A DNA stretch of 43,312 nt from Syntrophorhabdus sp. (GTDB taxonomy: Bacteria; Desulfobacterota; Syntrophorhabdia; Syntrophorhabdales; Syntrophorhabdaceae): the NCBI GenBank assembly GCA_012719415.1, contig JAAYAK010000025.1, positions 1-43,312 of the forward strand, given 5' to 3'. The notes beneath the pieces are model-generated. The model ran no database searches. It worked only from the letters and a program-made list of their open reading frames with translations, and had not been told where the DNA came from. Of this stretch, positions 1 to 31,075 are shown in pieces. The position numbers were made by a program, and so were the translations under genes. The stretch's first letter is position 1; every line of letters begins with the position of its first letter.

Positions 1-184
1 ACCTCCCTTTCTTTTAATTGTGGTGTTCCTGCACCACTGTTAATGGTTCAAGAAAGATGGTAGCCTTTTAACTGTCTGTCGGGCAAGGGGCTTTTATAAC
101 ATAGTCACTCAAGCTGTTCAAGCGGTTCAAACCGTCTTTCCGTTGTCTTGATTTCTCCTGCTCATCTGTTTTATTCTTCCCCTT

Positions 185-907
185 ATGAAGCTGCTTGTCC
201 TTGGGACCGGGACGGCTATTCCGAGAATTGAGCGGGGGTCGTCGGCGTATCTCGTGACGGCGCGCAGGGTGAAGGTCCTTGTCGACGTGGGTCCGGCCGT
301 TGTGAGGCGGCTCCTGGAGAGGGGATATGAAGTCGACGACGTGGATGTCATAATCCTCACCCACTTCCACGTGGATCATACGGCGGACCTTTCCACATTC
401 TTTTTTGCCTGCAACTACGGGAGGGTTCCCCGAAGAAGGCCGCTCACGGTCATCGGCGGGAAGGGCCTCGCCCGGTTCTACCGGGGGCTGTGCGCGGTTT
501 ATCCCTGGATCGTACCGAAGACCTACGATTTGACCATGCTGAGGCTGGTCAATGATTCCCGGAAGATGGCGGGGCTCACCGTCACGACGGCTCCCGTGAA
601 CCACAATCCGGAAAGCATCGCCGTGAGGATCGACGAAAAGAGGTCCGTCACCTTTTCGGGTGACACCGACGTCTCCGCGAACCTTGTCCGGCTGGCCGAC
701 GGGACAGATACACTTGTTGCCGAGTGCGCCTTTCCCGAGCGGAAGGTGAAGGGACATTTGAACTTTGCCGCCCTGGACAGGATAGTAAGGAAGGCGGAGC
801 CGAAACGCGTCATTCTCACCCACCTCTATCCCGACTGGGACGACTGGACCGGTGTGCTCCACGCACCGTACCTCCTGGGGGAAGACGGGATGGAGATGGA
901 GGTGTGA
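185..907 (+). CDS. MBL-fold metal-dependent hydrolase, ribonuclease Z-like
   Basis: A 240-residue protein of the metallo-beta-lactamase superfamily. Near residue 60 it has the metal-binding signature THFHVDH. Further candidate ligands follow in order: a histidine in VNHNPES, an aspartate in SGDTD and a late histidine in LTHLYP. The overall size and the start LGTGTAIP resemble the RNase Z/ElaC and small phosphodiesterase branch, but the substrate cannot be told from the sequence. The protein has no signal peptide and is probably cytoplasmic. The ATG at 185 has no clear Shine-Dalgarno sequence, but the family motif LGTGT begins at residue 6, so the start is well placed. The next gene, an LPS-kinase-like protein, lies downstream on the same strand after a heptad-repeat tract; no functional link is evident. 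Confidence 0.85.
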   Translation: MKLLVLGTGTAIPRIERGSSAYLVTARRVKVLVDVGPAVVRRLLERGYEVDDVDVIILTHFHVDHTADLSTFFFACNYGRVPRRRPLTVIGGKGLARFYRGLCAVYPWIVPKTYDLTMLRLVNDSRKMAGLTVTTAPVNHNPESIAVRIDEKRSVTFSGDTDVSANLVRLADGTDTLVAECAFPERKVKGHLNFAALDRIVRKAEPKRVILTHLYPDWDDWTGVLHAPYLLGEDGMEMEV

Positions 908-912
908 AGACC

Positions 913-975
913 GTTGCAGGTTTCAAGTTTCAGGTCTCAAGTTTCAGGTCTCAGGTCTCAGGCTAAAGACAAAGA
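913..975 (+). repeat. Heptanucleotide tandem tract 1
   Basis: Nine consecutive seven-base units with an exact 7-nt period. They begin at 913 with GTTGCAG, continue with GTTTCAR and GTCTCAR variants, and end GCTAAAG then ACAAAGA. The tract lies between two plus-strand genes. The same terminal pair (GNNAAAG, ACAAAGA) closes similar tracts at 10462-10560, 38274-38315 and 39094-39128. Confidence 0.8.
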
Positions 976-1085
976 AACAGAATGTTCCTGATGGCTGGCA
1001 TGTGCCCGCCAGGCATATAGACGTCCGGGGGGCTTTTCTCTTGTTTCCGTGGAAAAATGTGCTTGCATCGTATACAATCAGGAAA

Positions 1086-1886
1086 ATGGGAAAACTCAAG
1101 AGGGAACGGGAAGGGAGGTATGCCTTTGTTCACCGGGGGGAGTCGGTGGATATGGCAGAGCTTGTTGCCGGGATCGAGAGGCCCGCAAGGAGGTTCACCG
1201 GGGGGCGGGGCGCGCCGGGGGTCTTCGAGTTTGGGGGCAGGACGGTGGTTTGCAGGCAGTACTTCCATGGCGGCTGGCTCCGGGGGGTGACGGGTGCCAA
1301 CTTCCTCGGCGAGGAAAGGGCTCTCAGGGAACTTGAGGTGACGGCCTACCTGGAGGAAAGAGGATTTCCGGTGATCAGCCCGGTGGGCTATGTTGTCGAA
1401 AAGCAAGCGTCTTGCAGGAAACTTTACTTTCTGTCCCTCTTTCTGCCCGATGCCCGTGATCTCGTGGCATACTTTTTTTCTGCCGGTGTGAGGGAACGAC
1501 TGAGGATGGCGAAGAAGCTCGCCTCCACACTTTTTGAGATGGGTCGGCTGGGGGTCTATCATCCCGACCTGCATCTCAGGAACGTCCTCGCGACCTCAAA
1601 CGGGGGGCTTTTCCTGCTCGACTTCGACAAGGCATACCGCAAGGAAGTGGCATCGAGCGATTACGAAAGGATGTTCTGGCGCCTCGACAGATTCGTCAGG
1701 AAGTACGCCTCTCTCTTCGGCCGCCCCATAGACGACAGGGAACGCCTCATCTTCCTGCGCACATACGAACGTCTCTCCGGCGACAGGATCACAAAAAGGA
1801 TGTCCCAAAAACGCGACCAAATGAACCGCACCTCAAAACTGGGCTGGACCATAGACCGTTTGATCTATAGAAGAAAGAAGACCTGA
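1086..1886 (+). CDS. Kdo/WaaP-family lipopolysaccharide kinase-like protein
   Basis: About 266 residues from the chosen ATG. The protein has the minimal protein-kinase-like fold seen in Kdo kinases (KdkA) and WaaP. The catalytic-loop sequence YHPDLHLRNVL is followed by LLDFDKA, which matches the HxDLxxxN and DFD elements of that family. Family members phosphorylate the inner-core sugars of lipopolysaccharide at the inner membrane. The open frame runs upstream to 852, but that part overlaps the heptad-repeat tract and reads like non-coding DNA, so I start at the ATG at 1086. An ATG at 1152 with a GGGGGGAG stretch upstream is an alternative. The gene converges with a lipid A acyltransferase gene 63 bp away, so two LPS genes lie side by side. 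Confidence 0.75.
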   Translation: MGKLKREREGRYAFVHRGESVDMAELVAGIERPARRFTGGRGAPGVFEFGGRTVVCRQYFHGGWLRGVTGANFLGEERALRELEVTAYLEERGFPVISPVGYVVEKQASCRKLYFLSLFLPDARDLVAYFFSAGVRERLRMAKKLASTLFEMGRLGVYHPDLHLRNVLATSNGGLFLLDFDKAYRKEVASSDYERMFWRLDRFVRKYASLFGRPIDDRERLIFLRTYERLSGDRITKRMSQKRDQMNRTSKLGWTIDRLIYRRKKT

Positions 1887-1949
1887 AAAGCCAGCGCCAC
1901 ATCCTGCCGACAAGCGGCAATGCCCGTCGGCGGTGCCCCTTCAAGCGAT

Positions 1950-2837
1950 TCAAGCGGGTCTTTTCCTTCCCCACCGCTGGTGGACCCAGAACCATTCGTC
2001 GGGGTACTGGCGGATGATGTCTTCGAGGAAGGCGTTGATCTTGCGGGTGTTCTTCGCGATGAGGTCGTCGATGTCGCCGTCGCGTTCCATGAGGATGGGC
2101 TGGCCGCACATGATGGTGTAGCGAAGGAATCCCTTGCGCACGGGATAGCAGGGGACGACCTGGCAGCCGGTCTTCATGGCGATCATGGCGGTGCCCTTCG
2201 ATGTGGGGACCTTGTGGCCGAAGAAATCGACGAAGACCCCGCGGGACCGCTTTTCGCGCTGATCTCCGAGGATGGCGATGATGGCGTTCTTCTTGAGCAG
2301 GCGCATGACCTCCCTCGCGGTGTTGGCGTTGACGATGATGGTCAGGCCCGTCGATTCCCGGAGGCGATTGAGAAAGGTGTTGAGACGGACGTGTTTCTTG
2401 AGGGGCCGGGCGAGGGCCACGACGGGTTGGTTGAGGAGCCTGGAGGTTATGCCCATGATCTCCCAGTTGGCGAAGTGGAAGGTGAGCGCGATGACACCGC
2501 GGCCTGCCCCGAGGGTTGTCTCGACGATGTCCTTCGGCTCGAGGGAGAACCGCTCCGGGACCTCGCGGAGAGGGAGAAAGGGGACGAGAATGAGCTCTAT
2601 CATGTTGGTGCCGAGCTTCTGGAAACAGGAGAGGGCAATGTCTTTGGCCTCGCCGGGGGCGAGATCGGGGAAGGCCCTGCGTATGTTGGAGATGGCAATG
2701 TTCCGACGTCTCCTCAGCAGGGTGAAGCCCATCCTTCCGAGCCATCGACCGGTGCCCCGGCGAGCGCTCTCGGGCAGGGCCATGAGGCAAAGCTGCAGTG
2801 CCTTGATAAGAAAGATGATTGCGATATCCGCGATCAC
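1950..2837 (-). CDS. Lipid A late acyltransferase, LpxL/HtrB family
   Basis: A 295-residue member of the lysophospholipid/lipid A acyltransferase superfamily. The catalytic H-x4-E motif is HFANWE, with H121 and E126, and the later GDQ segment is typical of LpxL-like enzymes. Known family members transfer an acyl chain from acyl-ACP to Kdo2-lipid IVA or a later intermediate, on the inner face of the inner membrane. The hydrophobic N-terminus (residues 2-20) would be the membrane anchor. The gene starts 6 bases after the stop of the Trm112-like gene, so it is the last gene of the cmk-ispH-rpsA transcription unit. Whether it adds the first or second secondary chain cannot be decided here, so no gene symbol is given. 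Confidence 0.9.
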   Translation of the reverse strand: MIADIAIIFLIKALQLCLMALPESARRGTGRWLGRMGFTLLRRRRNIAISNIRRAFPDLAPGEAKDIALSCFQKLGTNMIELILVPFLPLREVPERFSLEPKDIVETTLGAGRGVIALTFHFANWEIMGITSRLLNQPVVALARPLKKHVRLNTFLNRLRESTGLTIIVNANTAREVMRLLKKNAIIAILGDQREKRSRGVFVDFFGHKVPTSKGTAMIAMKTGCQVVPCYPVRKGFLRYTIMCGQPILMERDGDIDDLIAKNTRKINAFLEDIIRQYPDEWFWVHQRWGRKRPA

Positions 2838-2843
2838 ACGAAC

Positions 2844-3029
2844 CTATTTCGGATCGTCGCCGTTGATCGGCAGGGCTTCCTCGATGAGCATCACGGGTAT
2901 GCCGTCCCGGATGGGATAAAGAAGACGGCAGGCGGCGCATGTGAGACCGTCCCCGGAGGCCGTCAGGACAAGGTCGCCCTTGCATTTGGGACAACAGAGG
3001 ATATCGAGCAGATCCTGGCTAATGGTCAT
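2844..3029 (-). CDS. Trm112-family small zinc-binding protein
   Basis: A 61-residue protein with two cysteine pairs. One is C12/C13 with C16 in LLDILCCPKC; the other is C31 and C34 in LTCAACR. The LYPIRDGIPVML segment that follows is the hallmark of the Trm112/YcaR family. Members are small zinc-ribbon proteins that stabilise methyltransferases in eukaryotes and archaea; the bacterial role is less clear. In many proteobacteria this small gene lies beside lipid A genes, and here it lies directly before an LpxL-like gene and 18 bases after rpsA on the same strand. Confidence 0.9.
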   Translation of the reverse strand: MTISQDLLDILCCPKCKGDLVLTASGDGLTCAACRLLYPIRDGIPVMLIEEALPINGDDPK

Positions 3030-3047
3030 TCTTCTCCTTCCTTCGGA

Positions 3048-4763
3048 TCAATCCGTGGTATCGCCGCCATTCTTCTTCATGGCCGGTTCAAGAATGTCGC
3101 CGAGAGTTGAGAAAGCACCTGTATTCTCCTCGCGCGTCTCCGTGATCACCCGGTTCTCTTTCCTGCGAAGCACCCTGGTGCTGAGCGCTATCCTCTTGTC
3201 CTTTTCGTCTATGTTGAGGATCGCTGCCTGTATGGTGTCGTCGAGGGTGAAGACCTCCGAAGGCTGTTTACCCTGGAGTTCGTCCATCTCGGAGACGTGG
3301 ACGAGGCCTTCGATCCCCTCCTCTATCTCGACGAAGACACCGAAATCGGTGATGCTCGTTATGTGGCCTTCGATGACATCACCCGTGGAATAGCGGCTCG
3401 CCACCCCTTTCCAGGGATCTTCCTTCAGACGTTTGATGCTGAGGGAGAACTTTTTCTGTGTCTTGTCGATGTTGAGGACAAAGGCGTCTATGGTGGTGCC
3501 CTTCTTGAACTGCTCCTGGAACGTCTTTTTCCTCCGGGACCAGGAGAGCTCCGACATGTGCACGAGTCCGTCGATGCCGTTGCCTATACCGACGAACATG
3601 CCGAATTCGGTGAAGTTCTTGACCTTGCCTTTCACGATGGAGCCGGGCGGGTAATTCACCTCGAGATCGTCCCAGGGATCAGGGGCCAGCTGTTTGAGGC
3701 CCAGGGAGATGCGTTTCTTCTCGAGGTCGATCTTGAGGACGACGAGTTCCAGGTTGTCGCCTTTGTTGACGAGCTTCGCGGGGTTCTTGAACTTCTTGTC
3801 CCAGCTCATCTCGCTGACGTGAAGCAGTCCCTCGAGTCCCTGCTCCAGTTCCACGAATGCGCCGTATTCCACGATCCCGACGACCTTGCCCTTGACCTTG
3901 CTTCCGACGGGGTATTTCTCGTCTATCTTCAGCCATGGGTCGGTCTTGAGCTGCTTCATGCCTATGGAGACACGTCCTTTCTCGGTGTCGATGGCTATGA
4001 TCTTGACCTTCACTTCGTCCCCGATCCTCAGGTATTCCTTGGGATGGGTTATCTTTCCCCATGTCACGTCGTTTATGTGGAGAAAACCGTCGACACCGCC
4101 GAGGTCGACGAAGGCCCCGTAGTCGGTGATGTTCCGGACGAAGCCATACAGGATCTGTCCGTCCTTGACGTTCTTCCAGAATTCCTGCCTTTTCTTATCC
4201 CGTTCCTCTTCGAGGAGCACACGCCTCGAAACGATGATGCTGCCCTTTCTCCGGTTGGACTTGATGACCTTGAATTTCAGGTTCCTTCCCACGAAGGATG
4301 CCGGGTTCTTGACGGGTTTGATGTCTACCTGCGAAAGCGGAAGGAAGGCGTTGATACCCATATCGACGATGAATCCGCCCTTGACCTCGTTCAGGATATG
4401 GCCTTCCAGGGGTGTCCCGTCTTCGAGGGACCTGTCGATCTTTTCCCAGGTCTTTATCTCGTCGACCCTCCTCTTCGAGAGTCTCAGGAGACCCGACTCC
4501 TTTTCCCTGCCGACGACCATCACTTCCACTTCGTCGTCGACGCTGACAGGCTGGGCCTCTCCTTCTTTCGGAGGGAATTCCTGGAGGGAGACTATGCCCT
4601 CGGACTTCAAACCCACATCCACAATGACCGAATCGCCGGTGATGTTGATCACCCTGCCTTTCAGGACATTGCCTTCCTGCAGGCTTTTCATCGACGTTTC
4701 GTACAGGGCCTGCATGTCCTCCTGTGAGTTATCTTTCGGTGTCCCGGAATCTGTCTCCACCAT
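3048..4763 (-). CDS. rpsA: 30S ribosomal protein S1
   Basis: A 571-residue protein with six S1 RNA-binding repeats, roughly at residues 33-98, 112-180, 200-270, 287-355, 373-443 and 458-528. The later repeats keep the pattern GxVxxIxxFGxFVxL...GLVHxSE. The length and six-repeat layout match full-length proteobacterial S1, which recruits mRNA to the 30S subunit. The order cmk-ispH-rpsA is conserved in many Desulfobacterota and Clostridia, where ispH and S1 can even be fused. Here they are separate genes 13 bases apart. The frame has no break. Confidence 0.97.
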   Translation of the reverse strand: MVETDSGTPKDNSQEDMQALYETSMKSLQEGNVLKGRVINITGDSVIVDVGLKSEGIVSLQEFPPKEGEAQPVSVDDEVEVMVVGREKESGLLRLSKRRVDEIKTWEKIDRSLEDGTPLEGHILNEVKGGFIVDMGINAFLPLSQVDIKPVKNPASFVGRNLKFKVIKSNRRKGSIIVSRRVLLEEERDKKRQEFWKNVKDGQILYGFVRNITDYGAFVDLGGVDGFLHINDVTWGKITHPKEYLRIGDEVKVKIIAIDTEKGRVSIGMKQLKTDPWLKIDEKYPVGSKVKGKVVGIVEYGAFVELEQGLEGLLHVSEMSWDKKFKNPAKLVNKGDNLELVVLKIDLEKKRISLGLKQLAPDPWDDLEVNYPPGSIVKGKVKNFTEFGMFVGIGNGIDGLVHMSELSWSRRKKTFQEQFKKGTTIDAFVLNIDKTQKKFSLSIKRLKEDPWKGVASRYSTGDVIEGHITSITDFGVFVEIEEGIEGLVHVSEMDELQGKQPSEVFTLDDTIQAAILNIDEKDKRIALSTRVLRRKENRVITETREENTGAFSTLGDILEPAMKKNGGDTTD

Positions 4764-4776
4764 GGTCCTGTGCCCC

Positions 4777-5598
4777 CTAAAAGTTTTTTACACGCCCCTC
4801 AACAATATCTATGATAAGGTCGGGAGTTGATGCGCCTCCCGTCAAACCCACGCGGGATACGTTCTGAAACCATTCCGGCCGGAGATCGTCAACGGTTTCG
4901 ATATGATGGGTGTTTGGTTGTACCTTGTGAACGACCTTGTAGAGTTTTGTGGTGTTGGAACTGTTCTTCCCCCCTACTACCAACATCATATCGACACTGC
5001 CCGATAACTCTATGGCCTCATTTTGTCGTATCTGGGTGCTTTCGCAAATTGTATTGTAGATCCTCAGCTCCTCCACGCCTGCGATGAGCTCCTTGACGAT
5101 GCCGACGAAGGTGCCTTTATCGAGGGTGGTCTGGCTTACAACTCCCACCTTCCTGGCGGCCAATGTTGTTGGTTCCTGTAGTACAATACCATCGTTATCC
5201 AAATAACTCAAGACACTTTTGACCTCGGGGTGGTTCCTGTCGCCGACGATCACGACCTGGTAGCCGCTCTTCTCGAGGTACTTTGCGTGCTTTCGAACGC
5301 GCTTCACGAAGGGGCACGTCGTGTCTATGATCTTGAGGCCCGTTGTCCGGGCATACTCCTCTTCATCCTTCCGTATGCCGTGGGTCCTGAAGACGATGGT
5401 TCCGTCCGTGACCTCGCGGACATCATCGACAGGGGTGACGCCCTTTTCCTTCAGGAGGTTCACCATCTGCGGATTGTGGATGATGGGTCCCAGCGTGAAG
5501 ACCTTTCCACCCGTCTCCCCGGCGGCCTTGAGGACCATCTTGATGGCGCGCTTGACCCCGAAACAGAAGCCGATGTTCTTCGTTTTGACCACCTTCAT
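4777..5598 (-). CDS. ispH: 4-hydroxy-3-methylbut-2-enyl diphosphate reductase
   Basis: A 273-residue IspH, the last enzyme of the MEP isoprenoid pathway, which makes IPP and DMAPP from HMBPP using a [4Fe-4S] cluster. The three cluster cysteines are C12 (GFCFGV), C95 (TTCPFV) and C185 (NTICEST). Substrate-site histidines are visible at H41 and H123. The frame stays open to 5658, but the 20 extra residues overlap cmk and precede the canonical N-terminus MKVVKTKNIGFCFGV, so I start at 5598. That leaves one base between this start and the cmk stop. IspH depends on reduced ferredoxin or flavodoxin, which suits an anaerobe. Confidence 0.96.
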   Translation of the reverse strand: MKVVKTKNIGFCFGVKRAIKMVLKAAGETGGKVFTLGPIIHNPQMVNLLKEKGVTPVDDVREVTDGTIVFRTHGIRKDEEEYARTTGLKIIDTTCPFVKRVRKHAKYLEKSGYQVVIVGDRNHPEVKSVLSYLDNDGIVLQEPTTLAARKVGVVSQTTLDKGTFVGIVKELIAGVEELRIYNTICESTQIRQNEAIELSGSVDMMLVVGGKNSSNTTKLYKVVHKVQPNTHHIETVDDLRPEWFQNVSRVGLTGGASTPDLIIDIVEGRVKNF

Positions 5599-5599
5599 T

Positions 5600-6268
5600 C
5601 TACGAGCCGTCCTCCTTATCGATATGCGCGAGGACCATCCTGAGGACGCCCTGCACATCTGTTCCCGTTGTGTCGAGGACTATGGCGTCGGACGGGACGA
5701 CGAGGGGGGCGATGGCCCGTTCGGAATCGTTCCTGTCCCGCTTTTCCATGTCTTCCCTCACTGCGGACAGGGCGTGGCCCGGGTCCCTCGACACAAGTTC
5801 GTTATATCTGCGGTTTGCCCGTTCATCGGGACGGGCGTCGAGGTAGAATTTGATATCGGCGTCAGGGAAAACGACGCTGCCCGTGTCGCGCCCTTCCAGG
5901 ACCACCTTCCCCTGTCCGGCCAGCTTGCGCTGGATCGCGTTCGCGTAATCCCTCACGACCTGTTTTTGTGACAGAGAGGATGCGAGCAGTGAGATATCGG
6001 GCTGCCGGATCTCGCCGGAGATGTCCCTGCCCGCCAGGGCGACCCGCGTATCACCACCGAACTCGAAGGATAGAGGGAGCGTCTGGAGGAGTTCCTCGAT
6101 GGTCTCCTCGTTCTTCCTCGTCTTGTAGGCGTATGCGATGCCGCGGTAAATGGCGCCGGAATCGATGTACGTGTATCCGGCCGTCGAAGCGAGGAGCCTG
6201 GCAATGGTCGACTTGCCGGCACCGCTCGGACCGTCTATGGTGATGATCTTGTTCTTTCTCGGAGTCAC
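5600..6268 (-). CDS. cmk: Cytidylate kinase
   Basis: CMP/dCMP kinase, an NMP kinase with the P-loop GPSGAGKS near the N-terminus, then the SGAIYRG and EGRDTGSVVFPDA substrate-site segments typical of CMK. The frame is open to a GTG at 6319, but that gives an unusual 17-residue N-terminal extension with no ribosome-binding site. The internal GTG at 6268 gives 222 residues (VTPRKNKIITIDG), the usual family length, with a GGGA upstream, so I prefer it with moderate certainty. It is the first gene of a cmk-ispH-rpsA-trm112-acyltransferase unit. The 640 bp upstream are filled by repeats. Confidence 0.92.
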   Translation of the reverse strand: MTPRKNKIITIDGPSGAGKSTIARLLASTAGYTYIDSGAIYRGIAYAYKTRKNEETIEELLQTLPLSFEFGGDTRVALAGRDISGEIRQPDISLLASSLSQKQVVRDYANAIQRKLAGQGKVVLEGRDTGSVVFPDADIKFYLDARPDERANRRYNELVSRDPGHALSAVREDMEKRDRNDSERAIAPLVVPSDAIVLDTTGTDVQGVLRMVLAHIDKEDGS

Positions 6269-6373
6269 GTTGTTTCCCGCAGCCTGAAAAACTGATGCCA
6301 GGTAGTCAGTATATACCACTTTTCAGTGAAATTCAAAGCCGAACCCCGCAACACCGCGCGGGGAGAGGGGTGG

Positions 6374-6476
6374 GAGCGGGGGCAAGCTCAAAGACCTTAT
6401 CTCACGCCCGTTCGTTGTATTCATCGTGCGGTAAGAGCGGGGGCAAACTCAAAGATATTATCTCTCGCCCGCTTCG
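6374..6476 (+). repeat. Pair of ~42-bp imperfect direct repeats
   Basis: The stretch GAGCGGGGGCAARCTCAAAG followed by a TTATCTC-CGCCCG-TTCG segment occurs at 6374-6414 and again at 6435-6476, 61 bases apart. The second copy runs into the left end of the large symmetric element that starts at 6458. The first therefore looks like a duplicated fragment of that element's border. Confidence 0.75.
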
Positions 6477-6891
6477 CTCAAGACCGCAGAGGACGCAGAG
6501 AGAGGAGAAAAGAAAGAAAAGATTGCCGCCGGATTTCGAAGCCTACCAAAATCCGGCGGCCTTCTCGTCCCGCCGTCCCGGCGGGAGAGAAACAATATGG
6601 GCTCTTTATCCTGAAGAAGTTATCCCCTCTCATCCCCCCCTGTAGTCATAGGTCCTATAAGTCCTATATGTCTCATAGGTCCTATACCCCATCCTCCAAC
6701 CCCCATACTACCTTACCCCCCAAGACTTCCATCCCCCCACCTGGAAAGGATTCTTTTCATGTCCCTCCCGTCGCAGACGGGATGCAAGGCCGGCTGGATC
6801 TTGGAAGGCTTCGAAATCCGGCCGGATCTTTTCTCTGCGTCCTCTGCGGGCTTGAGAGACGAGCGAAGTGAGGAACGGGCGAGAGGCAAGG
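6458..6891. repeat. Large mirror-symmetric intergenic element, copy A
   Basis: A 434-bp element filling most of the hisC-cmk gap. The outer arms are inverted copies: CTCTCGCCCG plus CTTCGCTC and CGCAGAGGACGCAGAGA on the left, with their reverse complement on the right. Inside each arm lie two hairpins. On the left, GCCGCCGGATTT pairs with AAATCCGGCGGC (6525-6560) and TCCCGCCG with CGGCGGGA (6568-6586). On the right, TCCCGTC pairs with GACGGGA (6766-6782), and a 10-bp stem lies at 6790-6825 followed by TCTTTTCTC. The centre holds a nine-base tandem tract (GTCCTATAN) at 6643-6687. A second copy lies at 25143-25579. No credible gene was found in it. Confidence 0.85.
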
Positions 6892-6907
6892 CTGTTGTTG
6901 AGGCGGC

Positions 6908-7972
6908 TTAAAGGAGTCTTTTCAGCTCTTCGATGCAGCGAGTGTTCTCGTGGGGGGTGCCGAAGGAGATGCGGATGGAGTCGGGCAGGCCGTAGGCTCC
7001 CATAAAGCGCACGAGGACCTTTCGCTCAAACAGCCTTTTCGTGATCTCCTCGGCCCGGGGACCAAGCTTGACGAGGACGAAGTTGGCTTCCGTGGGTGTG
7101 TATTCGAGGTTGAGCGCCTTCAGGGAGTCGTAGTAGAAGCTTTTCGCTGCCCTGTTGTTGGCGAGGACGGCGGCGAGGCGAACGTCGTCGTTGAGCGCGG
7201 CGCGGGCGGCGAGAATGGCGATGAGGTTGATGCTGAAGGGTTGCTTCGTCCTGTCGAGAAAGGAGACAAGCTCTGCGTCGCCTATCCCGTATCCGACTCT
7301 GAGGCCGGCGAGACCGTAGGCCTTGGAAAAGGTCCTCAGGATGAGGACGGGGTGCTCTTCTACAAAGGCGAGTGTTCTGGGGAAGGTCTCGATCTCGGCG
7401 AACTCGGCGTAGGCCTCATCGACGACGAGGAGAACGTCGGGCGGGATGGAACCGATGAAGCGTTCGAACTCCTCCTGGTGGTATATGGTGCCCGTGGGGT
7501 TCAAGGGGTTGTTGAGGAAGATGATCCGGGTCCGGTCGTCCATCGCGGCCGCTATCTTCCCGAGGTCCGTGGAGAGGTCCGTCAGGGGCACCTTTGTCGT
7601 CTCGTACCCGTAGATCCGGGCGGCGATGTCATAGAAGGCGAATGAGGACTCGGTGACGATGACGCCCGTGCGTGTGGCATGCTTCATGGCCCTGAAGGTC
7701 ATCTCGATCAGTTCGTTGGAGCCGTTGCCGATGAGGAAATTGTCCCCTTTGAGGCCGTAGAGGCCCGCAAGGTCGTCCTTGAGCTCTTTTTCTCCTCCCG
7801 GATACCGGTTGATCGCGAAGAGGGCGTCGAGTATGGATTCGAAGACCTTCTCCGAAGGGGGATAGGGGTTCTCGTTGGACGACAGGCGGACCCATCCGTC
7901 CTCGTGGCCGTACATGAGGGCCTTCGGGTAGTACGGTATGTTCCTGACACTGTCACTGATGGAGAGCTTCAT
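6908..7972 (-). CDS. hisC: Histidinol-phosphate aminotransferase
   Basis: A 354-residue fold-type I PLP aminotransferase. It has the HisC N-terminal signature LSSNENPYPPS, NPLNPTG around residue 155-161, D185 in VVDEAYAEF for the pyridine nitrogen, and K217 in TFSKAYGLAGLRVGY as the PLP-binding lysine. The C-terminal RISFGTPHEN segment carries the phosphate-binding arginine. HisC converts imidazole-acetol phosphate and glutamate to histidinol phosphate. The gene directly downstream of a PHP phosphatase gene fits the next histidine step. No other his genes are present here, so this is a detached part of the pathway. Some HisC-like enzymes act on aromatic amino acids instead, and that cannot be excluded. 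Confidence 0.93.
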   Translation of the reverse strand: MKLSISDSVRNIPYYPKALMYGHEDGWVRLSSNENPYPPSEKVFESILDALFAINRYPGGEKELKDDLAGLYGLKGDNFLIGNGSNELIEMTFRAMKHATRTGVIVTESSFAFYDIAARIYGYETTKVPLTDLSTDLGKIAAAMDDRTRIIFLNNPLNPTGTIYHQEEFERFIGSIPPDVLLVVDEAYAEFAEIETFPRTLAFVEEHPVLILRTFSKAYGLAGLRVGYGIGDAELVSFLDRTKQPFSINLIAILAARAALNDDVRLAAVLANNRAAKSFYYDSLKALNLEYTPTEANFVLVKLGPRAEEITKRLFERKVLVRFMGAYGLPDSIRISFGTPHENTRCIEELKRLL

Positions 7973-7977
7973 TGTCC

Positions 7978-8628
7978 TTACCTTGTTATCTTCCGGATGA
8001 GCGCTTCCGCGTTCTGCTGCATGGCGGTGAAATCCTCTTCGCCGAGTCCCGCCCCCAGTGCCACCCTCAGGGCCTCCGCGTCGGTGACGAGGTCCGATGG
8101 ACTGTGTGAATCGGTGTTGAGGACGAGTTTGGCCCCCGCGGCCTTCGCCAGCTTCGCTACATGACCGTTCGTCAGGGAATGCCCCTTCCTCGTTGTTATC
8201 TCCAAAAGGACCCCCCGCTCTTTCGCCGCCTCCACCTCTTTCGGCGTGATGAGGCCGGGATGGGCGAGGATGTCGACACCCGCCTCGATAGCCGCGGCGT
8301 TGGTCCCTTCCTCCACGGGCTCCGCGATGGTCTCTCCGTGGACGACAACGTAGGAAAAGCCGAGCCTGCGTGCCAGCGCCGTCAGCTCACCGATCTGCTT
8401 CGCCGGACAGTGGGTGAGCTCGGCCCCCGCCACGATCCTCAGGCCCTCGTGCAGCTCGGCGTATTTCAGGAGTTTCAGGATGGATACGGCGACATGCTCT
8501 ATGGTCGTCTGGTCCACATGGTCCGATATGCCGAGTACCCGATAACCTTTGACCTTTGCCCGGCGGGCGAGTTCGAGGGGGAGGAGTTCGCCGTCGCTCA
8601 ACAGCGTATGTGTGTGCAGATCGATCAT
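7978..8628 (-). CDS. PHP-domain phosphatase, probable histidinol-phosphatase
   Basis: A 216-residue protein of the PHP phosphoesterase family. It has the metal motifs IDLHTHTLLSDG at the N-terminus, GISDHVD, AGAELTH, DILAHPG and the C-terminal NTDSHSP. All expected metal ligands are visible. It matches the class often labelled histidinol phosphate phosphatase domain protein, and its place 5 bases before hisC supports removal of phosphate from histidinol phosphate. The family also includes unrelated phosphoesterases, so the substrate is inferred from context. The frame is open to 8649, but I start at 8628 because MIDLHTH is the usual N-terminus and leaves one base after the upstream stop. Confidence 0.85.
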   Translation of the reverse strand: MIDLHTHTLLSDGELLPLELARRAKVKGYRVLGISDHVDQTTIEHVAVSILKLLKYAELHEGLRIVAGAELTHCPAKQIGELTALARRLGFSYVVVHGETIAEPVEEGTNAAAIEAGVDILAHPGLITPKEVEAAKERGVLLEITTRKGHSLTNGHVAKLAKAAGAKLVLNTDSHSPSDLVTDAEALRVALGAGLGEEDFTAMQQNAEALIRKITR

Positions 8629-8629
8629 G

Positions 8630-9130
8630 CTACATCTTGTACTTTCCAAAATCGTCCTGAGAGAGGTTCTCCAGTATGTCCTCCCAATCGGAGCTTTCCG
8701 TGACCACCTTGTCGCCTTTCTGAGTGGCGAGGTCCACCTTCGCCGAGCGCTGGATGACGCTTTCCTCGACGAAGATGGGGGCGTTCGTGCGAAGAGCGAT
8801 GGCGATGGCGTCGCTGGGACGCGAGTCTATGACCATCCTCTTCTTGTTCACGTCGAGGTGGATGAGGGCGTAATACGTGTTGTCCTTGAGGTCGTTCACC
8901 TCGATCTTGAGGATCTTTACCCCGAGGCTGTCGAGCAGGTTCTTGATAAGATCGTGCGTCATGGGTCTCGGCGTCTCAATGTTCTCCAGGGCTGTTGCGA
9001 TGCTTGATGCCTCGAGAAGCCCGATCCAGATGGGGAGGACGTCCTTTTCCTCCGAATCCTTCAGGAGAACGATGGGCGTATTGGTAAAAGGGTCGACGGT
9101 TATTCCGGCGACCTTCATCTCTTTGAGCAT
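8630..9130 (-). CDS. Bifunctional nuclease (BFN/DUF151) family protein
   Basis: A 166-residue protein of the BFN/DUF151 family. The family core is visible: LLKDSEEKDVLPIWIG, then EASSIATALE, PRPMTHDL and RPSDAIAIALR. Family members have been described as nucleases or stress-linked proteins, and the structural core is well conserved while the cellular role is not settled. Here it lies between miaB (3 bases upstream) and the PHP phosphatase, all on the same strand with almost no spacing, so it is probably co-transcribed with miaB. The acidic C-terminal tail (after residue 145) is the variable part of the family. Confidence 0.9.
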   Translation of the reverse strand: MLKEMKVAGITVDPFTNTPIVLLKDSEEKDVLPIWIGLLEASSIATALENIETPRPMTHDLIKNLLDSLGVKILKIEVNDLKDNTYYALIHLDVNKKRMVIDSRPSDAIAIALRTNAPIFVEESVIQRSAKVDLATQKGDKVVTESSDWEDILENLSQDDFGKYKM

Positions 9131-9133
9131 CGT

Positions 9134-10450
9134 CTACCTCCCCGGGGTATCCGGTAGTTCTCCCCGTAATGAATTAGCATACCCTTTTATTATATCCACT
9201 TCCACTAATTTGTAAACCAGCCCGGGGTCGCCCCTGAAGTTGACGATCTTGCCTGTCCGCGTCCTTCCTGACAGTTCATCGGTGGAGTTCTTGCTCTGGC
9301 CCTCAACGAGGACCTCGACACGGGTTCCCTCCATCGCCCTGTTGGAGTCGAGCGTTATCGCCCTCTGTCTCTTCTGGAAACGGCTGAGCCTCTCGTGGGC
9401 GATGGCCGGGGGCACCCTGCCGGGGAGGAGGGCCGCGGCGGTGGATCTCCGGGCCGAGTATATGAAGGAGAAAACCCCGTCGAACCGCACGGTCTCCATG
9501 AGCCTCATGGTCGCCTCAAAATCGCCCTCGTTCTCGCCGGGGAAGCCCACGATGCAGTCGGCCGTGAAGGCGATCCCGGGACATTGTTCTTTGAGGGCCT
9601 CGACCCTGGCAAGATACTCCGAGGAGGTGTAGCCTCTGTTCATGAGGGCGAGGACCCTGTCGGAGCCCGACTGGAAGGGAAGGTGGATCGATTCGCAGAG
9701 CGTCTTCAAGGTGCCGAAGCAGGCGATGAGCTCCGGTGAGATGTCCTTGGGGTGCGACGTGACGAAACGGAGCCTGGATATCCCCGGTATCGCGTCTATC
9801 TCGCACAGGAGCTCCGAGAAGGAGAGGTCATCACTACCATTGTTATAGGAGTTGACGTTCTGGCCAAGGAGTGTTACCTCCACGATGCCCCGCTCCGCCA
9901 TTTCGCGGACCTCGGCAAGGACGTCCCCGCTTTTCCTGCTTTCTTCCCGCCCCCGCACGTAGGGCACCACGCAGTAACTGCAAAAGTTGTCGCACCCCTT
10001 CATGATGGTCACGTAGCCCTTGACCCCCTTGCGGGTGTTATGGGGCCTGATAAGAAGGGACGGCGAGCGCCCGTTGTCGCCGAACGCGGACGTGCGGATG
10101 CGGTCCGCGGCGTTCTTGACCGCCTCGGCTATCAGGTGAATGCTGGAGGGGCCCAGGGAAAAATCGATGAAAGGCAACCGTTCGAATACATTTTCCTTCT
10201 CCTGCTGGGCGATGCACCCCGTCACGCCCAGGATGGTCCCCTTTTTCCTGCGCAGATGCTGGAGCCTCCCCATGAGGCTGTAGAACTTCTGCTCCGCTTT
10301 TTCCCTGATGCAGCACGTATTGACGATGACGACGTCGGCATCGTCGACGTCCTTCGCCGCCACGTGCCCGTGATCGATGAGGACGGACCCCATCTTCTCC
10401 ATATCATGGTCATTCATCTGGCAACCGAAATTTTCGATAACAAATTTCAT
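9134..10450 (-). CDS. miaB: tRNA-2-methylthio-N6-dimethylallyladenosine synthase
   Basis: A 438-residue methylthiotransferase with three domains. The N-terminal UPF0004 domain has the three cluster cysteines C10, C46 and C79. The radical-SAM domain has the CxxxCxxC motif at C153, C157 and C160 within MKGCDNFCSYCVVPYVRG. A TRAM domain follows from about residue 370. MiaB adds a methylthio group to i6A37 in tRNAs reading UNN codons, using two [4Fe-4S] clusters. The VVPYVRG sequence after the radical-SAM cysteines favours MiaB over RimO or MtaB. The gene follows a large inverted heptad repeat that separates it from the fructose-bisphosphatase gene. Confidence 0.95.
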   Translation of the reverse strand: MKFVIENFGCQMNDHDMEKMGSVLIDHGHVAAKDVDDADVVIVNTCCIREKAEQKFYSLMGRLQHLRRKKGTILGVTGCIAQQEKENVFERLPFIDFSLGPSSIHLIAEAVKNAADRIRTSAFGDNGRSPSLLIRPHNTRKGVKGYVTIMKGCDNFCSYCVVPYVRGREESRKSGDVLAEVREMAERGIVEVTLLGQNVNSYNNGSDDLSFSELLCEIDAIPGISRLRFVTSHPKDISPELIACFGTLKTLCESIHLPFQSGSDRVLALMNRGYTSSEYLARVEALKEQCPGIAFTADCIVGFPGENEGDFEATMRLMETVRFDGVFSFIYSARRSTAAALLPGRVPPAIAHERLSRFQKRQRAITLDSNRAMEGTRVEVLVEGQSKNSTDELSGRTRTGKIVNFRGDPGLVYKLVEVDIIKGYANSLRGELPDTPGR

Positions 10451-10461
10451 ATCAAAAGCTC

Positions 10462-10560
10462 GTGTTAAGTTTTAAGTGAAAGACAAAGACCATGTCAAGC
10501 CTTGAGTGGTTGAGGCCTGACACGGTCTTTGCCTAAAACTTAACACTTAAAACTTAAAAC
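10462..10560. repeat. Inverted heptad tracts bracketing an 18-bp stem
   Basis: A ~100-base dyad. The plus-strand tract reads GTGTTAA, GTTTTAA, GTGAAAG, ACAAAGA (10462-10489). The minus-strand tract reads GTTTTAA, GTTTTAA, GTGTTAA, GTTTTAG, GCAAAGA from 10560 down to 10526. Between and overlapping them is an 18-bp stem with two mismatches (10485-10502 with 10513-10530) and a 10-base loop. It lies between the fructose-bisphosphatase and miaB genes and could form a strong RNA hairpin. No long U-run follows, so it is not a classic terminator. Confidence 0.8.
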
Positions 10561-10564
10561 GTTT

Positions 10565-11665
10565 TTATCCTCTAACCTTGAACTTTGGTTCCAGTTTCTC
10601 CATTTTCTTTACGATGCCGCCGTACTCCAGCTCGCTGTAAGGGAGCATTGCCGCGCCGGAGAAGCCCTGCTGTCTGATCTCGGTGGCCTTCCGCGAGACG
10701 TTGTTCCTGATGTAGTCCCAGTAGGGATGATCGAAGCAGTCGGCCGCTTCCGTCAGCTTGCCTTCGTGGACGCAGAAGCCCATGGCGGATACGACGGGCG
10801 GGCCGTCGAAGTAAGACACACTGGAGTTCATCTTGACGGGCATGAGCGGACCCGTGTGGCTTCCGCGCATGAAGCCGGCAACGTAGTGGCCGATGTTGAA
10901 GGGCGCGAGCACCTCGCCCGTGGCGGGGAAGGGACCCTGGCAGCGGACGAGCATGACGGGGTCGTCCTTGCCGGTGTACTTGCCGGCTATGTTGTGGAGC
11001 CGGGAGGTGCAGGCGGAAGCGGCGATCTCGCCGGTCTCCCGGGAATAGACCGATTCGACGACGTAGCGTTCGTTGTCCCTGAGGAGGGCGGCTATATCAT
11101 ACAACTCTTCAGGAGCATTGAGCTCGATGACCTTGTCGCCCTCGGTGTGCTCCACGTCCATGATGACGAACTTGAAACCCTTCGCCATGTTGGGCGAGAG
11201 AATGAGCCCCGAGTTGTACATGGGGTCGCAGAACATGAGGTAAAGGGGCAGGTTATAGGCGCCGGGATCCGTCTTGTCAGCCGCGAACATGACGAAGGGC
11301 TCGTTCGGCCTCTCCTCGAACTCCATCTCCGCGACGGCCGGCCCCATGCCCTTGACGTTGCCCGAAAAGGAGTCTTTCAGAAGGTCCTGGCCCGCCCCGT
11401 AGAGTCCCTGCTTCTTTGCCACCTGGGTTCCCGCGAGGAAGGCGTCCCAGGCAAGTTTGTGGAGTTTCTCGAAACCGACTCCGTTCGTGTGGGCGAAGAG
11501 TATGGCGATGTCATCACCGGTGTGGCTCACGAAAAAGTCGCTCATGAGATCTTTGCCTTCGGACTCTACGAATTCTATCACCCGCTTGATCAGTTTCTTG
11601 CTGGGCTTGATATGCCCGCCGATGCTACCGATGTCAGCTTTGATAATGGATAACGTCATCTTCAT
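10565..11665 (-). CDS. fbp: Fructose 1,6-bisphosphate aldolase/phosphatase, archaeal type
   Basis: A 366-residue class V fructose-1,6-bisphosphatase. This type also acts as an aldolase, so one protein turns triose phosphates into fructose 6-phosphate. The family pattern is clear throughout: ADIGSIGGH at the N-terminus, SHTGDDIAI, FCDPMYNSGLILSPNM, DVEHTEGDKVIELNAPEELY, NIGHYVAGFMRGSH and SYFDGPPVVSAMGF. It is common in archaea and in deep-branching or strictly anaerobic bacteria. The ATG at 11665 follows a good AGGAGG and overlaps the surE stop as ATGA, so the genes are translationally coupled. It works in the gluconeogenic direction in known cases. Confidence 0.95.
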   Translation of the reverse strand: MKMTLSIIKADIGSIGGHIKPSKKLIKRVIEFVESEGKDLMSDFFVSHTGDDIAILFAHTNGVGFEKLHKLAWDAFLAGTQVAKKQGLYGAGQDLLKDSFSGNVKGMGPAVAEMEFEERPNEPFVMFAADKTDPGAYNLPLYLMFCDPMYNSGLILSPNMAKGFKFVIMDVEHTEGDKVIELNAPEELYDIAALLRDNERYVVESVYSRETGEIAASACTSRLHNIAGKYTGKDDPVMLVRCQGPFPATGEVLAPFNIGHYVAGFMRGSHTGPLMPVKMNSSVSYFDGPPVVSAMGFCVHEGKLTEAADCFDHPYWDYIRNNVSRKATEIRQQGFSGAAMLPYSELEYGGIVKKMEKLEPKFKVRG

Positions 11666-12411
11666 AACAACCTCCTGAAGTGTTTTTGGTAAATCTTCAT
11701 CGAACCGGCGTCCGTTATATCGAGACCCAGGGGTGTGATGGAAACGTAGCCCTTCTCTACGGCGTAGAAGTCAGTACCGCGCCTGCGTTCGTATCTTTCA
11801 CCGTTGCCGCCTATCCAATAGTATTTCCGGCCCCGCGGATCGACCCTTTCGTGAACAATATCATTATATATCCTTTTGCCGAGCCTTGTCACGGAAAAAC
11901 CTTTGAGCCTTTCCCGCGGAAGGTTGGGAATATTGACGTTCACGACGGTGCCCTCGAGAAAGACCCCTTCCGTCAGTCTCTCCACGACGATGCACGCGAC
12001 CCCCGCCGCGTCGTCGAAGAGGAACCCCTCCCGTGCGCAGACGGAAACGGCCATCGACGGGATCCCCAGGAAGCCCCCTTCCCTCGCTGCCGCGACCGTG
12101 CCGGAATAGTTCACGTCCCGGCCCATGTTCGGTCCCGTGTTTATCCCCGAGACGACGAGATCGGGTCGCCGGGGGAGGACGGCGTGGACGCCGAGGAGAA
12201 CGCAGTCAGCGGGCGTGCCGTTCGTCGCGTACACGCCGCGGGAAAGCTCGCGGACCCTCAACGGTTTGTGGAGCGTCACCGCGTGGGCGACGCATGTCCG
12301 TTCACGCTCCGGGGCGACCATGTACACGTCGTGTTTTTCCGACAGATGCCTGCCGAGGGTGACGATCCCCCTTGAATGGATACCGTCGTCGTTGGTGAGA
12401 AGGATAAGCAA
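11662..12411 (-). CDS. surE: 5'/3'-nucleotidase SurE
   Basis: A 249-residue SurE. It has the metal-binding start MLILLTNDDGI (D8, D9), the SGINTGPNMGRDVNYSGTVAAAREG core and the GTDFYAVEKGYVSITPL C-terminal segment. SurE removes phosphate from nucleoside monophosphates and is linked to stationary-phase survival. The family length is about 250 residues, so the gene is complete. It is the first protein gene of the minus-strand run, about 30 bases downstream of tRNA-Pro, and overlaps the archaeal-type fructose-bisphosphatase by four bases. Many Desulfobacterota place surE beside pcm, but no pcm is present here. Confidence 0.95.
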   Translation of the reverse strand: MLILLTNDDGIHSRGIVTLGRHLSEKHDVYMVAPERERTCVAHAVTLHKPLRVRELSRGVYATNGTPADCVLLGVHAVLPRRPDLVVSGINTGPNMGRDVNYSGTVAAAREGGFLGIPSMAVSVCAREGFLFDDAAGVACIVVERLTEGVFLEGTVVNVNIPNLPRERLKGFSVTRLGKRIYNDIVHERVDPRGRKYYWIGGNGERYERRRGTDFYAVEKGYVSITPLGLDITDAGSMKIYQKHFRRLL

Positions 12412-12439
12412 GAAGTACCCGGTCTCGAGAAATAGAATA

Positions 12440-12515
12440 TCGGGGCGACGGGATTTGAACCTGCGGCCTCCTGCACCCCAAGCAGGTGCGCTAAACCATG
12501 CTGCGCTACGCCCCG
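12440..12515 (-). tRNA. tRNA-Pro (anticodon GGG)
   Basis: A 76-nt cloverleaf on the minus strand. The acceptor 5' strand CGGGGCG pairs with CGCCCCG and is followed by discriminator A. The D arm is GCGC...GCGC. The anticodon stem is CCTGC/GCAGG with loop TTGGGGT, giving anticodon GGG. The T loop is TTCAAAT. The C1-G72 pair and A73 are typical proline identity elements. The T stem GCAGG/CCCGT has one A-C mismatch in the middle. No CCA is encoded. surE follows on the same strand. Confidence 0.93.
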
Positions 12516-12592
12516 ATGCACATCAATATAACGGATAGCGGGCCAAAAGTCCATAGTTTTGGGTGGGGCCATGGGCAAGGTACTCCTTTCTA

Positions 12593-12622
12593 TTGACTTT
12601 TTCCGCGTCCTTATCATAATAT
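12593..12622 (+). promoter_or_regulatory. Putative sigma-70 promoter for rplU
   Basis: TTGACT (12593-12598) is followed at 16-18 bases by CATAAT (12615-12620) or TAATAT (12617-12622), about 40 bases before the rplU start. This is the only clear promoter-like stretch before the long plus-strand run that starts with rplU. A strong AAGGAG lies before the rplU ATG. Confidence 0.55.
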
Positions 12623-12660
12623 ATGTAGTTTTTTTCAGAACCTAAGGTAAGGAGTATCAC

Positions 12661-12978
12661 ATGTACGCGATCATTGAGAACGGCGGGAAGCAGTATAGGA
12701 TCGAAGAAGGTAAGAAAGTGAGGCTCGAAAAGTTCGCCGGAGTGGAAGGCGACGAAGTGAAGATCGAAAACGTTCTTGCCGTCAATACGGGAGAGACCAC
12801 ACTCATTGGAAGCCCCTATGTCTCAGGTGCATATATCAACGGAAAGGTTGTGGCGCAGGGCAGGGACAAGAAGGTCACGGTCTTCAAGTACAAGAGAAGG
12901 AAAGACTACAAGGTCAAAAGAGGCCACAGGCAGCCTTTCACGGAACTGCTTGTAGAGAAGATCACAGTGGAGGCATAA
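12661..12978 (+). CDS. rplU: 50S ribosomal protein L21
   Basis: A 105-residue L21. It starts [17 protein letters not shown] and ends in the [16 protein letters not shown] segment, both typical of the family, and its full length is normal. It sits next to domain structures of 23S rRNA in the large subunit. The start is supported by AAGGAG seven bases upstream. It begins the rplU-rpmA-obgE run found in most bacteria; rpmA starts one base after its stop. Confidence 0.97.
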
Positions 12979-12979
12979 C

Positions 12980-13231
12980 ATGGCGCACAAGAAAGCGGGC
13001 GGAAGCTCACGCAACGGCAGGGACAGCAAGGGTCAGAGACTCGGCGTCAAGATATACGGCGGCCAGGCCATAAAGGCCGGAAGCATCATCGTCAGACAGC
13101 ACGGAACGAAGATCCATCCCGGACAGAATGTCGGCATCGGCAAGGACGACACCCTCTTTGCCCTGATAGACGGGATCGTGAGGTTCGACATGGCAGGTGA
13201 CAGAAGAAGGGCGCATGTCGTACCTGTTTGA
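12980..13231 (+). CDS. rpmA: 50S ribosomal protein L27
   Basis: An 83-residue L27 with the start [21 protein letters not shown], whose N-terminal tail reaches the peptidyl-transferase centre. It begins with MAHKKAG directly and has no Firmicutes-type cleaved leader, which fits a proteobacterial lineage. It lies one base after rplU, and its TGA shares its last base with the obgE ATG. Confidence 0.97.
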
Positions 13232-14241
13232 TGAAGTTCATAGATGAAGCGATCATATATGTTGAGTCCGGAAAAGGTGGGAGTGGCTGTGTAAGTTTCC
13301 GACGAGAGAAGTTCATTCCGCGAGGCGGACCCGACGGCGGTGATGGCGGGAAGGGAGGAGACGTTATCATAGCAGGGAAGAAAGACCTCGCAAGCCTCCA
13401 CGATTTCAGATACAAGCGCAACTACAAAGCTGAGAACGGAAAAGCCGGAGCGGGAAAGAACAAGACCGGCAGGGAAGGCAGGGACGTCATAATAAGCGTG
13501 CCCCTCGGCACCGTTGTTTACGACCGTGATACCTCGGAGCTTTTGTTCCAGGTTCTCAAGGACGGTGAGACCCGCGTCGCGGCGAGCGGCGGCAGGGGCG
13601 GCAGGGGAAACACGAGGTTCGTCACCTCCACCCACCGGGCCCCCCTTGAGTTCGATGCCGGAGAGCAAGGGCAGAAGCGCTGGCTTCACCTTGACCTCAA
13701 GCTCCTCGCCGATGTCGGCCTCGTCGGCCATCCCAACGCAGGGAAATCAACGCTCATCTCCCGCCTCACCCAGGCGAGACCCAAGGTCGGCGATTATCCC
13801 TTCACGACCCTCACCCCTGCCCTGGGGGTCCTCGATGACAACGAAAAGACCTTCGTCATCGCCGACATCCCGGGCATCATCGAGGGGGCGTCGAGCGGCA
13901 GGGGCCTGGGGCTTGCCTTCCTCAAGCACATAGAGAGGACGAACGCGCTTCTCATCGTTCTCGACCTCTCCTCCGGCGACGTGAAGGGAGACTACAGGAC
14001 CCTTCTCGAGGAACTGGGAAGCTACAGCGAGGCGATGCTTGAGAAGCGAAGGCTCGTGGTGCTCAACAAGGCCGACCTCGTGACCCCGGACGTGGCCGCC
14101 CGGTGGAGGTCATATCTCACGAGGAAGGGAGAGAAGGCGGTCGTCGTCAGCGCCCTCACCCTCGCAGGAATTGACGATCTCGTCTCGGCGATCTCCGGGG
14201 GTGTCGAGGCGCTGAGGCAGAACCTCACCCGGGCGGTCTGA
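13231..14241 (+). CDS. obgE: Obg-family GTPase
   Basis: A 336-residue Obg GTPase. The glycine-rich Obg domain covers about residues 1-158. The G domain follows, with GHPNAGKST (G1), DIPGI (G3), NKAD (G4) and SAL (G5). The protein ends soon after the G domain and lacks the long C-terminal extension of E. coli ObgE. Obg binds the 50S subunit and links GTP or ppGpp level to ribosome assembly. The frame could begin at a TTG at 13228, but the ATG at 13231 matches the family N-terminus [14 protein letters not shown] and overlaps the rpmA stop by one base. Confidence 0.96.
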   Translation: MKFIDEAIIYVESGKGGSGCVSFRREKFIPRGGPDGGDGGKGGDVIIAGKKDLASLHDFRYKRNYKAENGKAGAGKNKTGREGRDVIISVPLGTVVYDRDTSELLFQVLKDGETRVAASGGRGGRGNTRFVTSTHRAPLEFDAGEQGQKRWLHLDLKLLADVGLVGHPNAGKSTLISRLTQARPKVGDYPFTTLTPALGVLDDNEKTFVIADIPGIIEGASSGRGLGLAFLKHIERTNALLIVLDLSSGDVKGDYRTLLEELGSYSEAMLEKRRLVVLNKADLVTPDVAARWRSYLTRKGEKAVVVSALTLAGIDDLVSAISGGVEALRQNLTRAV

Positions 14242-14244
14242 ACC

Positions 14245-16601: not shown

Positions 16602-16611
16602 GGACGGTACA

Positions 16612-17966: not shown

Positions 17967-17969
17967 CGG

Positions 17970-25137: not shown

Positions 25138-25142
25138 ATACA

Positions 25143-25579: not shown

Positions 25580-25660
25580 TCTTTCGCCTTTGCATGGGAC
25601 TATTTTCCCCTTCCGGAAGTAATAAAACAGGGAGAATCGCTGCGCCGGTGATGGGAGGGG

Positions 25661-25689
25661 TAAACAAATTCGTAAGAGTGTGTCATAAT
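25661..25689 (+). promoter_or_regulatory. Putative sigma-70 promoter for the mop operon
   Basis: TAAACA (25661-25666), a 17-base spacer, then CATAAT (25684-25689). The match is four of six for -35 and five of six for -10. It lies about 85 bases before the mop start, in the only stretch between the repeat element and the gene. A strong AAGGAGG precedes the mop ATG. Confidence 0.45.
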
Positions 25690-25773
25690 TGTTTTGAAAG
25701 CGTTGGATCATGTCGGGCGGATGCCCTGGGTAGAAAGATGATAGAAAGGATCACGTAAAAAGGAGGAGCCTCA

Positions 25774-28503: not shown

Positions 28504-28516
28504 AAAGGGCTAAAAG

Positions 28517-31047: not shown

Positions 31048-31075
31048 CACCGACAAGACAGAAGGCGACGGTCCT

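Follow-up and report, generated by a model that had tools for sequence, protein, structure and literature searches.

Seven-base tandem tracts in the window

The window, i.e., the whole stretch of 43,312 nucleotides analysed here, corresponds to contig 25 in an assembly of 3.7 Mb from Syntrophorhabdus sp. Another contig of the assembly (contig 150, locus L042) has 91% identity over 2.9 kb to a contig of Syntrophorhabdus sp. PtaB.Bin184, which places the organism close to Syntrophorhabdus. From its letters alone, an earlier note had reported seven-base tandem tracts at several places, and period-7 sequence was found at all of them: at 913-975, at 10461-10478 with 10534-10560 as an inverted pair, at 38287-38316 on the minus strand, and at 39094-39128. 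One more tract, at 38125-38155, had been overlooked; it faces the 38287 tract, forms a second inverted pair with it, and is without the kept end motif. The tracts and their parts are as follows.

908-975, plus strand: single arm directly 3' of the stop codon of gene 185-907, made of AGACC, then seven heptads (913-961), then GCTAAAG ACAAAGA (962-975)
10461-10478, plus strand: outer arm 1 of the first inverted pair, GTTTTAA-type heptads
10479-10533, minus strand: inner stem-loop between the arms, with the minus-strand sequence AAAGACCGTGTC...GACATGGTCTTT
10534-10560, minus strand: outer arm 2 of this pair, 4 bp past the stop codon of the minus-strand gene 10565-11665
38125-38155, plus strand: left arm of the second inverted pair, GTTCCAG heptads, in a gap between divergent genes
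38156-38286: spacer of the second inverted pair; its sub-sequence near TTGTCAACACAATT is also present in other spacers
38287-38316, minus strand: right arm of the second inverted pair, its inner edge being GAAAAAGACAAA on the minus strand
39094-39128, plus strand: single arm, GTTTAAA GTTTCAG GTTCCAG, then GTTAAGG ACAAAGA; the seven-base part is 39094-39121

In a search of Rfam, only a tRNA was matched. Other repeats were noticed in the same genome. A spacer sub-sequence near CCGGTTGTCAACACAATT occurs at 38260 (minus strand) of the window and in four other loci (L186:12231, L026:1472, L033:1603, and L036:1533), with 1 occurrence in the reversed control, and is present even within a period-8 pair. 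Period-9 arrays of the ATAGGTCCT type lie in two intergenic gaps of the window (6648-6686 and 25330-25389), and elsewhere in the genome the same word makes facing pairs (L188:8004-8174 and L193:5622-5729). A GC-rich hairpin, GCCGCCGGAT...ATCCGGCGGC with the tail TCTTTTCT, is repeated at 6525-6560, 25212-25247, and 25478-25511 of the window, and its copies sit within longer dispersed repeats that have GCGGAGGACGCAGAG and GCCCGTTCG pieces. At L048:1308-1450, an arm occurs twice together with its inner flank, as a head-to-tail duplication with a distance of about 105 bp.

Genome-wide distribution and place at gene ends

Three GTTYYAR units in tandem (pattern GTTYYARGTTYYARGTTYYA) were matched 56 times on the forward and 55 times on the reverse strand of the assembly; its reversed version gave 1 and 2 matches. 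These 111 matches against 3 are far above chance. The location is mostly intergenic: in 443 kb of unbiased sequence, 19 of 24 period-7 arrays were found in intergenic DNA, which makes up about 8% of that sequence, and 14 of 16 unbiased tracts lay outside called genes (called using our own codon-usage script, not a published caller). In the same 443 kb, 32 of the 133 gaps of at least 60 bp held arrays with a period of 7, 8, or 9. The same facing layout was observed with periods of 8 (GGTTCAAG) and 9 (GCTTGAACC, TATAGGTCC).

For the comparisons within the own genome, we used 61 loci, comprising 21 unbiased stretches (the window included) and 40 loci picked for holding tracts; 4 of the 44 loci originally selected in this way (L040, L046, L047, and L059) were dropped as they lay inside unbiased stretches. 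These 61 loci hold 101 tracts, of which 98 have full flanks and the remaining 3 were excluded from the flank counts.

Among neighbouring tracts not more than 300 bp apart in the own genome, 28 face inward, none outward, and 9 and 8 run in the same direction. The 47 gaps that hold tracts (mostly from loci picked for holding tracts, not for their position) comprise 26 co-directional, 13 convergent, and 8 divergent gaps; both orientations are present in 25 and one orientation only in 22. The distance from the element edge to the 3' end of a gene has a median of 11 bp and is at most 15 bp in 30 of 52 cases, as against a median of 70 bp to a gene start, with at most 15 bp in 6 of 42. In co-directional gaps, the element is nearer the upstream stop codon in 21 of 26 (Wilcoxon p 0.0013), with a median of 7.5 bp to the stop versus 53.5 bp to the start. 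The spacer between facing tracts can itself form a hairpin.

Motif at the tract edges

The earlier note had all tracts ending in ACAAAGA or a close variant. The end is kept above chance, though not in every tract: ACAAAGA itself was found in the first 21 nt on the inner side of only 5 of 98 tracts (background 0.1-0.2%; 0.1% in intergenic sequence), and of its six occurrences on the plus strand of the window, three are at tracts and three elsewhere. Shorter or different forms are more frequent on this side: AAAGA in 44 of 98 (background 2.4% in the genome and 4.3% in intergenic sequence), AAAGAC in 28 of 98 (1.2% intergenic), and AAAGACAAA in 11 of 98 (0.0% intergenic). On the outer side, within 14 nt, AAAGA was found in 26 and AAAGAC in 21 of 98, against 1.5% (genome) and 2.8% (intergenic) for AAAGA and 0.8% (intergenic) for AAAGAC; AAGA, which is TCTT on the facing strand, lies not more than 14 nt outside 46 of the 98 arms. 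The kept end is thus not ACAAAGA; it is (A)AAGAC, on both sides of the tract, and a typical arm has the order (A)AAGAC, one or two bases, heptads, and GNNAAAGAC. The composite AAAGRCAAAGA occurs 27 times in the assembly versus 5 in the reversed control.

The edge motif is complementary on the facing arm and therefore lengthens the inverted repeat. As AAAGAC is found on both sides and is absent from over half of the tracts, the proposal that the end is the recognised part is not supported in the form given; AAAGAC may simply be part of the stem. Inward pairing, a position just past the stop codon, and arms that complement each other are the features kept best.

Complementarity and folding of the arms

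The 28 inward pairs were selected by pattern and strand alone, disregarding complementarity; a test on pairs that complementarity itself had picked out (0 of 20000) was discarded for its bias in favour of this selection by pattern and strand. Arms of the same locus match at 0.74 versus 0.61 between loci, a value reached in 3 of 20000 permutations. The dominant unit is shared by both arms in 15 of the 28 pairs, where 8.8 were expected (144 of 20000).

The fold z-score was -10.0 for 10451-10564 and -4.2 for the pair in 38115-38330. In an alignment of 10451-10564 from six species, 48 pairs were 97.8% standard, five of them being changed on both sides, and 0 of 500 shuffles were as high; four of the five two-sided changes are in the outer, heptad stem. 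These changes come mostly from one species versus five close ones, and in the folding program the term for covariation came out slightly unfavourable (+1.59); hence the covariation is support and not proof. The excess of G-U over A-C mismatches that is expected of a sense RNA stem was not significant (61 vs. 43, p 0.095). A simple terminator scan gave no excess in positions 1-20000 of the window (17 vs. 19.3 in shuffles) and 22 vs. 15.7 in positions 24000-43312, with no clear excess overall; it left the 10451 hairpin unflagged, and its loop limit of 8 hides long-spaced pairs.

Replacement of the unit word at orthologous sites

We compared the same sites across 12 genomes of the genus (G000 to G011). 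The gene 10565-11665 is present in 10 of the 12, and the arms behind it (10451 site) are built of GTTTTAR in G000, G001, G002, G005, and G010, of GTTTCAG in G003, of GTAATAG/GTTATAG in G011, of GTTATAG in G008, and of GTTCTAC in G007; in G009, GTYTCAR arms are parted by an insertion. The stem of the inner hairpin at this site is recognisably kept in most relatives, and the 10461-10478 arm is exactly 14 bp, i.e., two units, shorter than in four relatives. None of the units GTTYYAR, GTTCTAC, and GTTATAG has a GGG run. Repeats of the CGTCATCCCGGC...GCCGGGATGACG type were seen inserted in or beside the 10451-type heptad element in G009 (L209) and G007 (L210).

The TPR gene has an ortholog in 6 of the 12 genomes, the rest having distant TPR proteins only. 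The site before it carries GTTCCAG in G000 and G001, GTTTCAG in G010, a period-8 pair in G005, and no arms in G002 and G007. At a site on contig 50, the arms are GTTTTAR in G000, G001, G002, and G005, CGTAAGG in G004, AAGTCGT-like in G009, and GGGATCA-like in G011; G010 and G006 have no ortholog of this site.

At these three sites, which are the examined ones with pairs and not a random draw, right arms were swapped between genomes, using one genome per unit and the outer 48 nt as arms (or half of the region if shorter). A match as good as that of the true right arms was reached in 1 of 120 permutations at the 10451 site, 1 of 6 at the site before the TPR gene (38063), and 2 of 24 at the contig-50 site. 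The 10451 test covered 5 of 10 genomes, leaving out G001, G002, G005, and G010 (which have the unit of G000) and G009 (insertion); the 38063 test covered 3 of 6 ortholog genomes, leaving out G001 (like G000) and the armless G002 and G007; and the contig-50 test covered 4 of 10, leaving out G000, G001, and G005 (like G002), G003 (reduced), G008 (none), and G007 (stop codon only). At two further sites, on contigs 69 and 187, the pairs in other units did not add up to a full set.

Some orthologous sites are empty. The tract behind gene 185-907 is found in five more of the 12 genomes, with another element in one, and is absent in G011, G008, G004, and G009; the contig-69 element is absent in five genomes, where another gene follows. 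Each species was seen to have its own words in stretches not picked for tracts, the samples of G004 and G006 being only about 40 kb; for these words, tandem-repeat scans were run with a threshold score of 36 in one scan and 30 in another. The idea that G007, G008, and G011 are without the family, which their low GTTYYAR counts had suggested, was rejected, as tandem-repeat scans and one orthologous site show other units in them.

The earlier note was right in describing a variable unit next to something constant, and the case is stronger than the window alone could show: at the same site, a sister species may have a quite different unit, and AAAGA can still adjoin the arms. Arms of other units have AAAGA at 6 of 13 left edges and TCTTT at 6 of 13 right edges (background 4%). 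Both arms jointly receive a new word and the layout stays, which suggests that the hairpin matters and not the word.

Tracts in other phyla

A four-unit pattern was matched in at least 119 stretches of named genomes, including Flavobacterium, Bacteroidales, Desulfobacterales, Acidobacteria, Cyanobacteria, Shewanella, candidate phyla, and others. Among the matches listed, neighbouring tracts were inward in 26 cases, outward in 1, and in the same direction in 45. In the listed stretches, arrays without the searched word are likewise mostly of period 7, with 189 of them versus 11 of period 6, 31 of period 8, and 40 of period 9. A facing copy accompanies 64 of these period-7 arrays, versus 7 in the reversed control. 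As the stretches were picked for holding a heptad tract, this is evidence of a tendency shared by such genomes, and no evidence on bacteria as a whole. The outer edges in Flavobacterium are T-rich on the left and A-rich on the right, a polarity opposite to that found here, and a U-tail is therefore not general. Nine stretches from outside the own genus, of 1.8-20 kb each, were too short for judgement.

Possible nature of the elements

Taken together, place, facing order, and matching arms speak for a stem that folds back at the end of gene transcripts and is readable from both sides. We give about even chances to the elements being fold-back hairpins at gene ends, whose tandem-heptad arms are altered by slippage and by copying from one arm to the other, with pairing as the constraint. 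The outer stem would be formed by two facing tandem arms (of 7-base, less often 8- or 9-base units) around a spacer that may hold a stem-loop of its own, and the AAAGAC/GTCTTT edges would prolong it, giving each strand an A-rich lead and a U-rich tail. Behind stop codons, such an element would most likely act at the 3' end of the transcript as a two-way terminator or an end shield. The unit word would be free provided both arms pair. Arm length would change by whole units, as in the one 14 bp difference, and the change could reach the other arm via template switching across the inverted repeat or via selection for pairing, so that the unit would drift as a pair until each lineage has its own word. 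Layout, place, matching of the arms, joint replacement, and one length change by whole units are observed; formation of the hairpin in RNA, a role in ending or shielding transcripts, and the transfer of changes by copying between arms are inferred. Evidence against this reading comes from the single arms, the elements in divergent gaps (the 38125-38316 pair of the window among them), the lack of a clear excess in the terminator scan, and the non-significant G-U excess.

Alternatively, the tracts could be a functionless by-product of replication, where slippage makes the units, template switching at quasi-palindromes makes like arms, and the gaps behind stop codons tolerate growth. The unit-wise 14 bp difference between species, the rapid gain, loss, and change of units, and the similar arrays with other words and periods are in agreement with this; nevertheless, we consider it rather unlikely, given that outward order never occurs (0 of 45 neighbours), that AAAGA edges adjoin different words, and that the elements cluster at stop codons and not anywhere in the gap. 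A small REP- or MITE-like mobile element that inserts behind genes, the arms being its terminal inverted repeats, is distinctly unlikely. There are at least 100 copies with words limited to species, and orthologous sites can be empty; however, at the 10451 site the arms are replaced and the inner hairpin stays, neither a fixed-length core nor a target duplication was seen by eye, and the REP-associated transposase family does not track the tract counts.

It would be highly improbable that the tracts are an array bound by a protein, such as the IHF/HU proposed in Geobacter metallireducens, or that they signal the species in DNA uptake. Inverted pairs of tandem words, and words that are common across one genome and different in sister species, speak for such an array. 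Against it, several unrelated words (GTTYYAR, GGTNATR, and the period-8 GGTTCAAG) coexist in one genome and arms within a locus match unit by unit, neither of which binding alone would predict. A dedicated copying process that writes seven-base words into both arms of hairpins at gene ends, rewrites them genome-wide upon a change of word, and runs in many phyla we consider very unlikely, although the predominance of period 7 and the facing copies in other phyla would agree with it; if true, species would each have their own dialect, with the period, facing order, and edges fixed.

Comparison with known repeat systems

Repeats of several kinds resemble these tracts in part. The REP/BIME elements comprise about 100 or more inverted pairs behind genes, are not known to have tandem heptads, and are tied to RAYT; in contrast, the tracts described here do not follow RAYT. 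RAYT (PF01797) was tried as a trans factor and rejected: G002 has 0 matches with 167 tract matches, and G003 and G004 have four each with 10 and 3. The cyanobacterial STRR unit is CCCCART and its relatives. Literature searches on the letters of the heptad unit or on STRR heptanucleotides returned nothing relevant.

The earlier note had taken the likeness to heptad repeats elsewhere as one of form only, but the Xanthomonas pairs share place and orientation as well. The GGGAATC heptads of two Xanthomonas species form about 185 tracts per genome, are about 90% intergenic, lie on average 28 nt from the upstream gene and 160 nt from the downstream gene, make 70 and 75 convergent pairs, and have their prominent repeats at different genes in the two species (Rehm et al., 2015, PMC4692102). 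Tandem structure, mostly intergenic location, closeness behind the upstream gene, and convergent pairs are common to both systems. In contrast, the Xanthomonas unit is G-rich and has been studied as a quadruplex former, whereas GTTYYAR has no GGG run, and the part of the account consulted holds neither an arm-to-arm comparison nor a unit replacement at orthologous sites (PMC4692102). The same source, citing a 2007 survey, describes heptad repeats as over-represented in many bacterial genomes and states that, as of 2015, no detailed literature was available on them.

In Geobacter metallireducens, the sections consulted describe predicted sites of a global regulator in classes 1-3. Their units of 7-9 bases (GTTGCTYN, TCTCCGTS, and MTYCTGA) stand three to five in tandem and are paired on opposite strands at variable distance; they are putative IHF/HU sites with predicted binding, and these sections give no placement relative to stop codons (PMC2700814). 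Class 3 is of heptads; its unit MTYCTGA is not matched here, our units on that strand being RACYTRA or AACTTGA-like. The TAACTGA heptads of marine Beggiatoaceae, found in Cyanobacteria and Bacteroidetes too, are intergenic and tandem but, as far as the consulted part of the source goes, differ in being direct, with a single inverted case in 170, and in lying mostly a short way 5' of start codons (PMC4679880).

In the literature searched, which covered few subscription journals, we found no account of both arms having their unit replaced jointly. Convergent heptad pairs behind genes (Xanthomonas) and paired tandem repeats (Geobacter metallireducens) are known, and the coordinated replacement of the unit appears to be new. 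The replacement of the word with the layout kept points to pairing and to a process of copying and not to a recognised word. In essence, comparison of orthologous sites makes the question of heptad repeats testable; the sites are natural experiments in which the word changes in both arms and the layout and the neighbouring genes do not.
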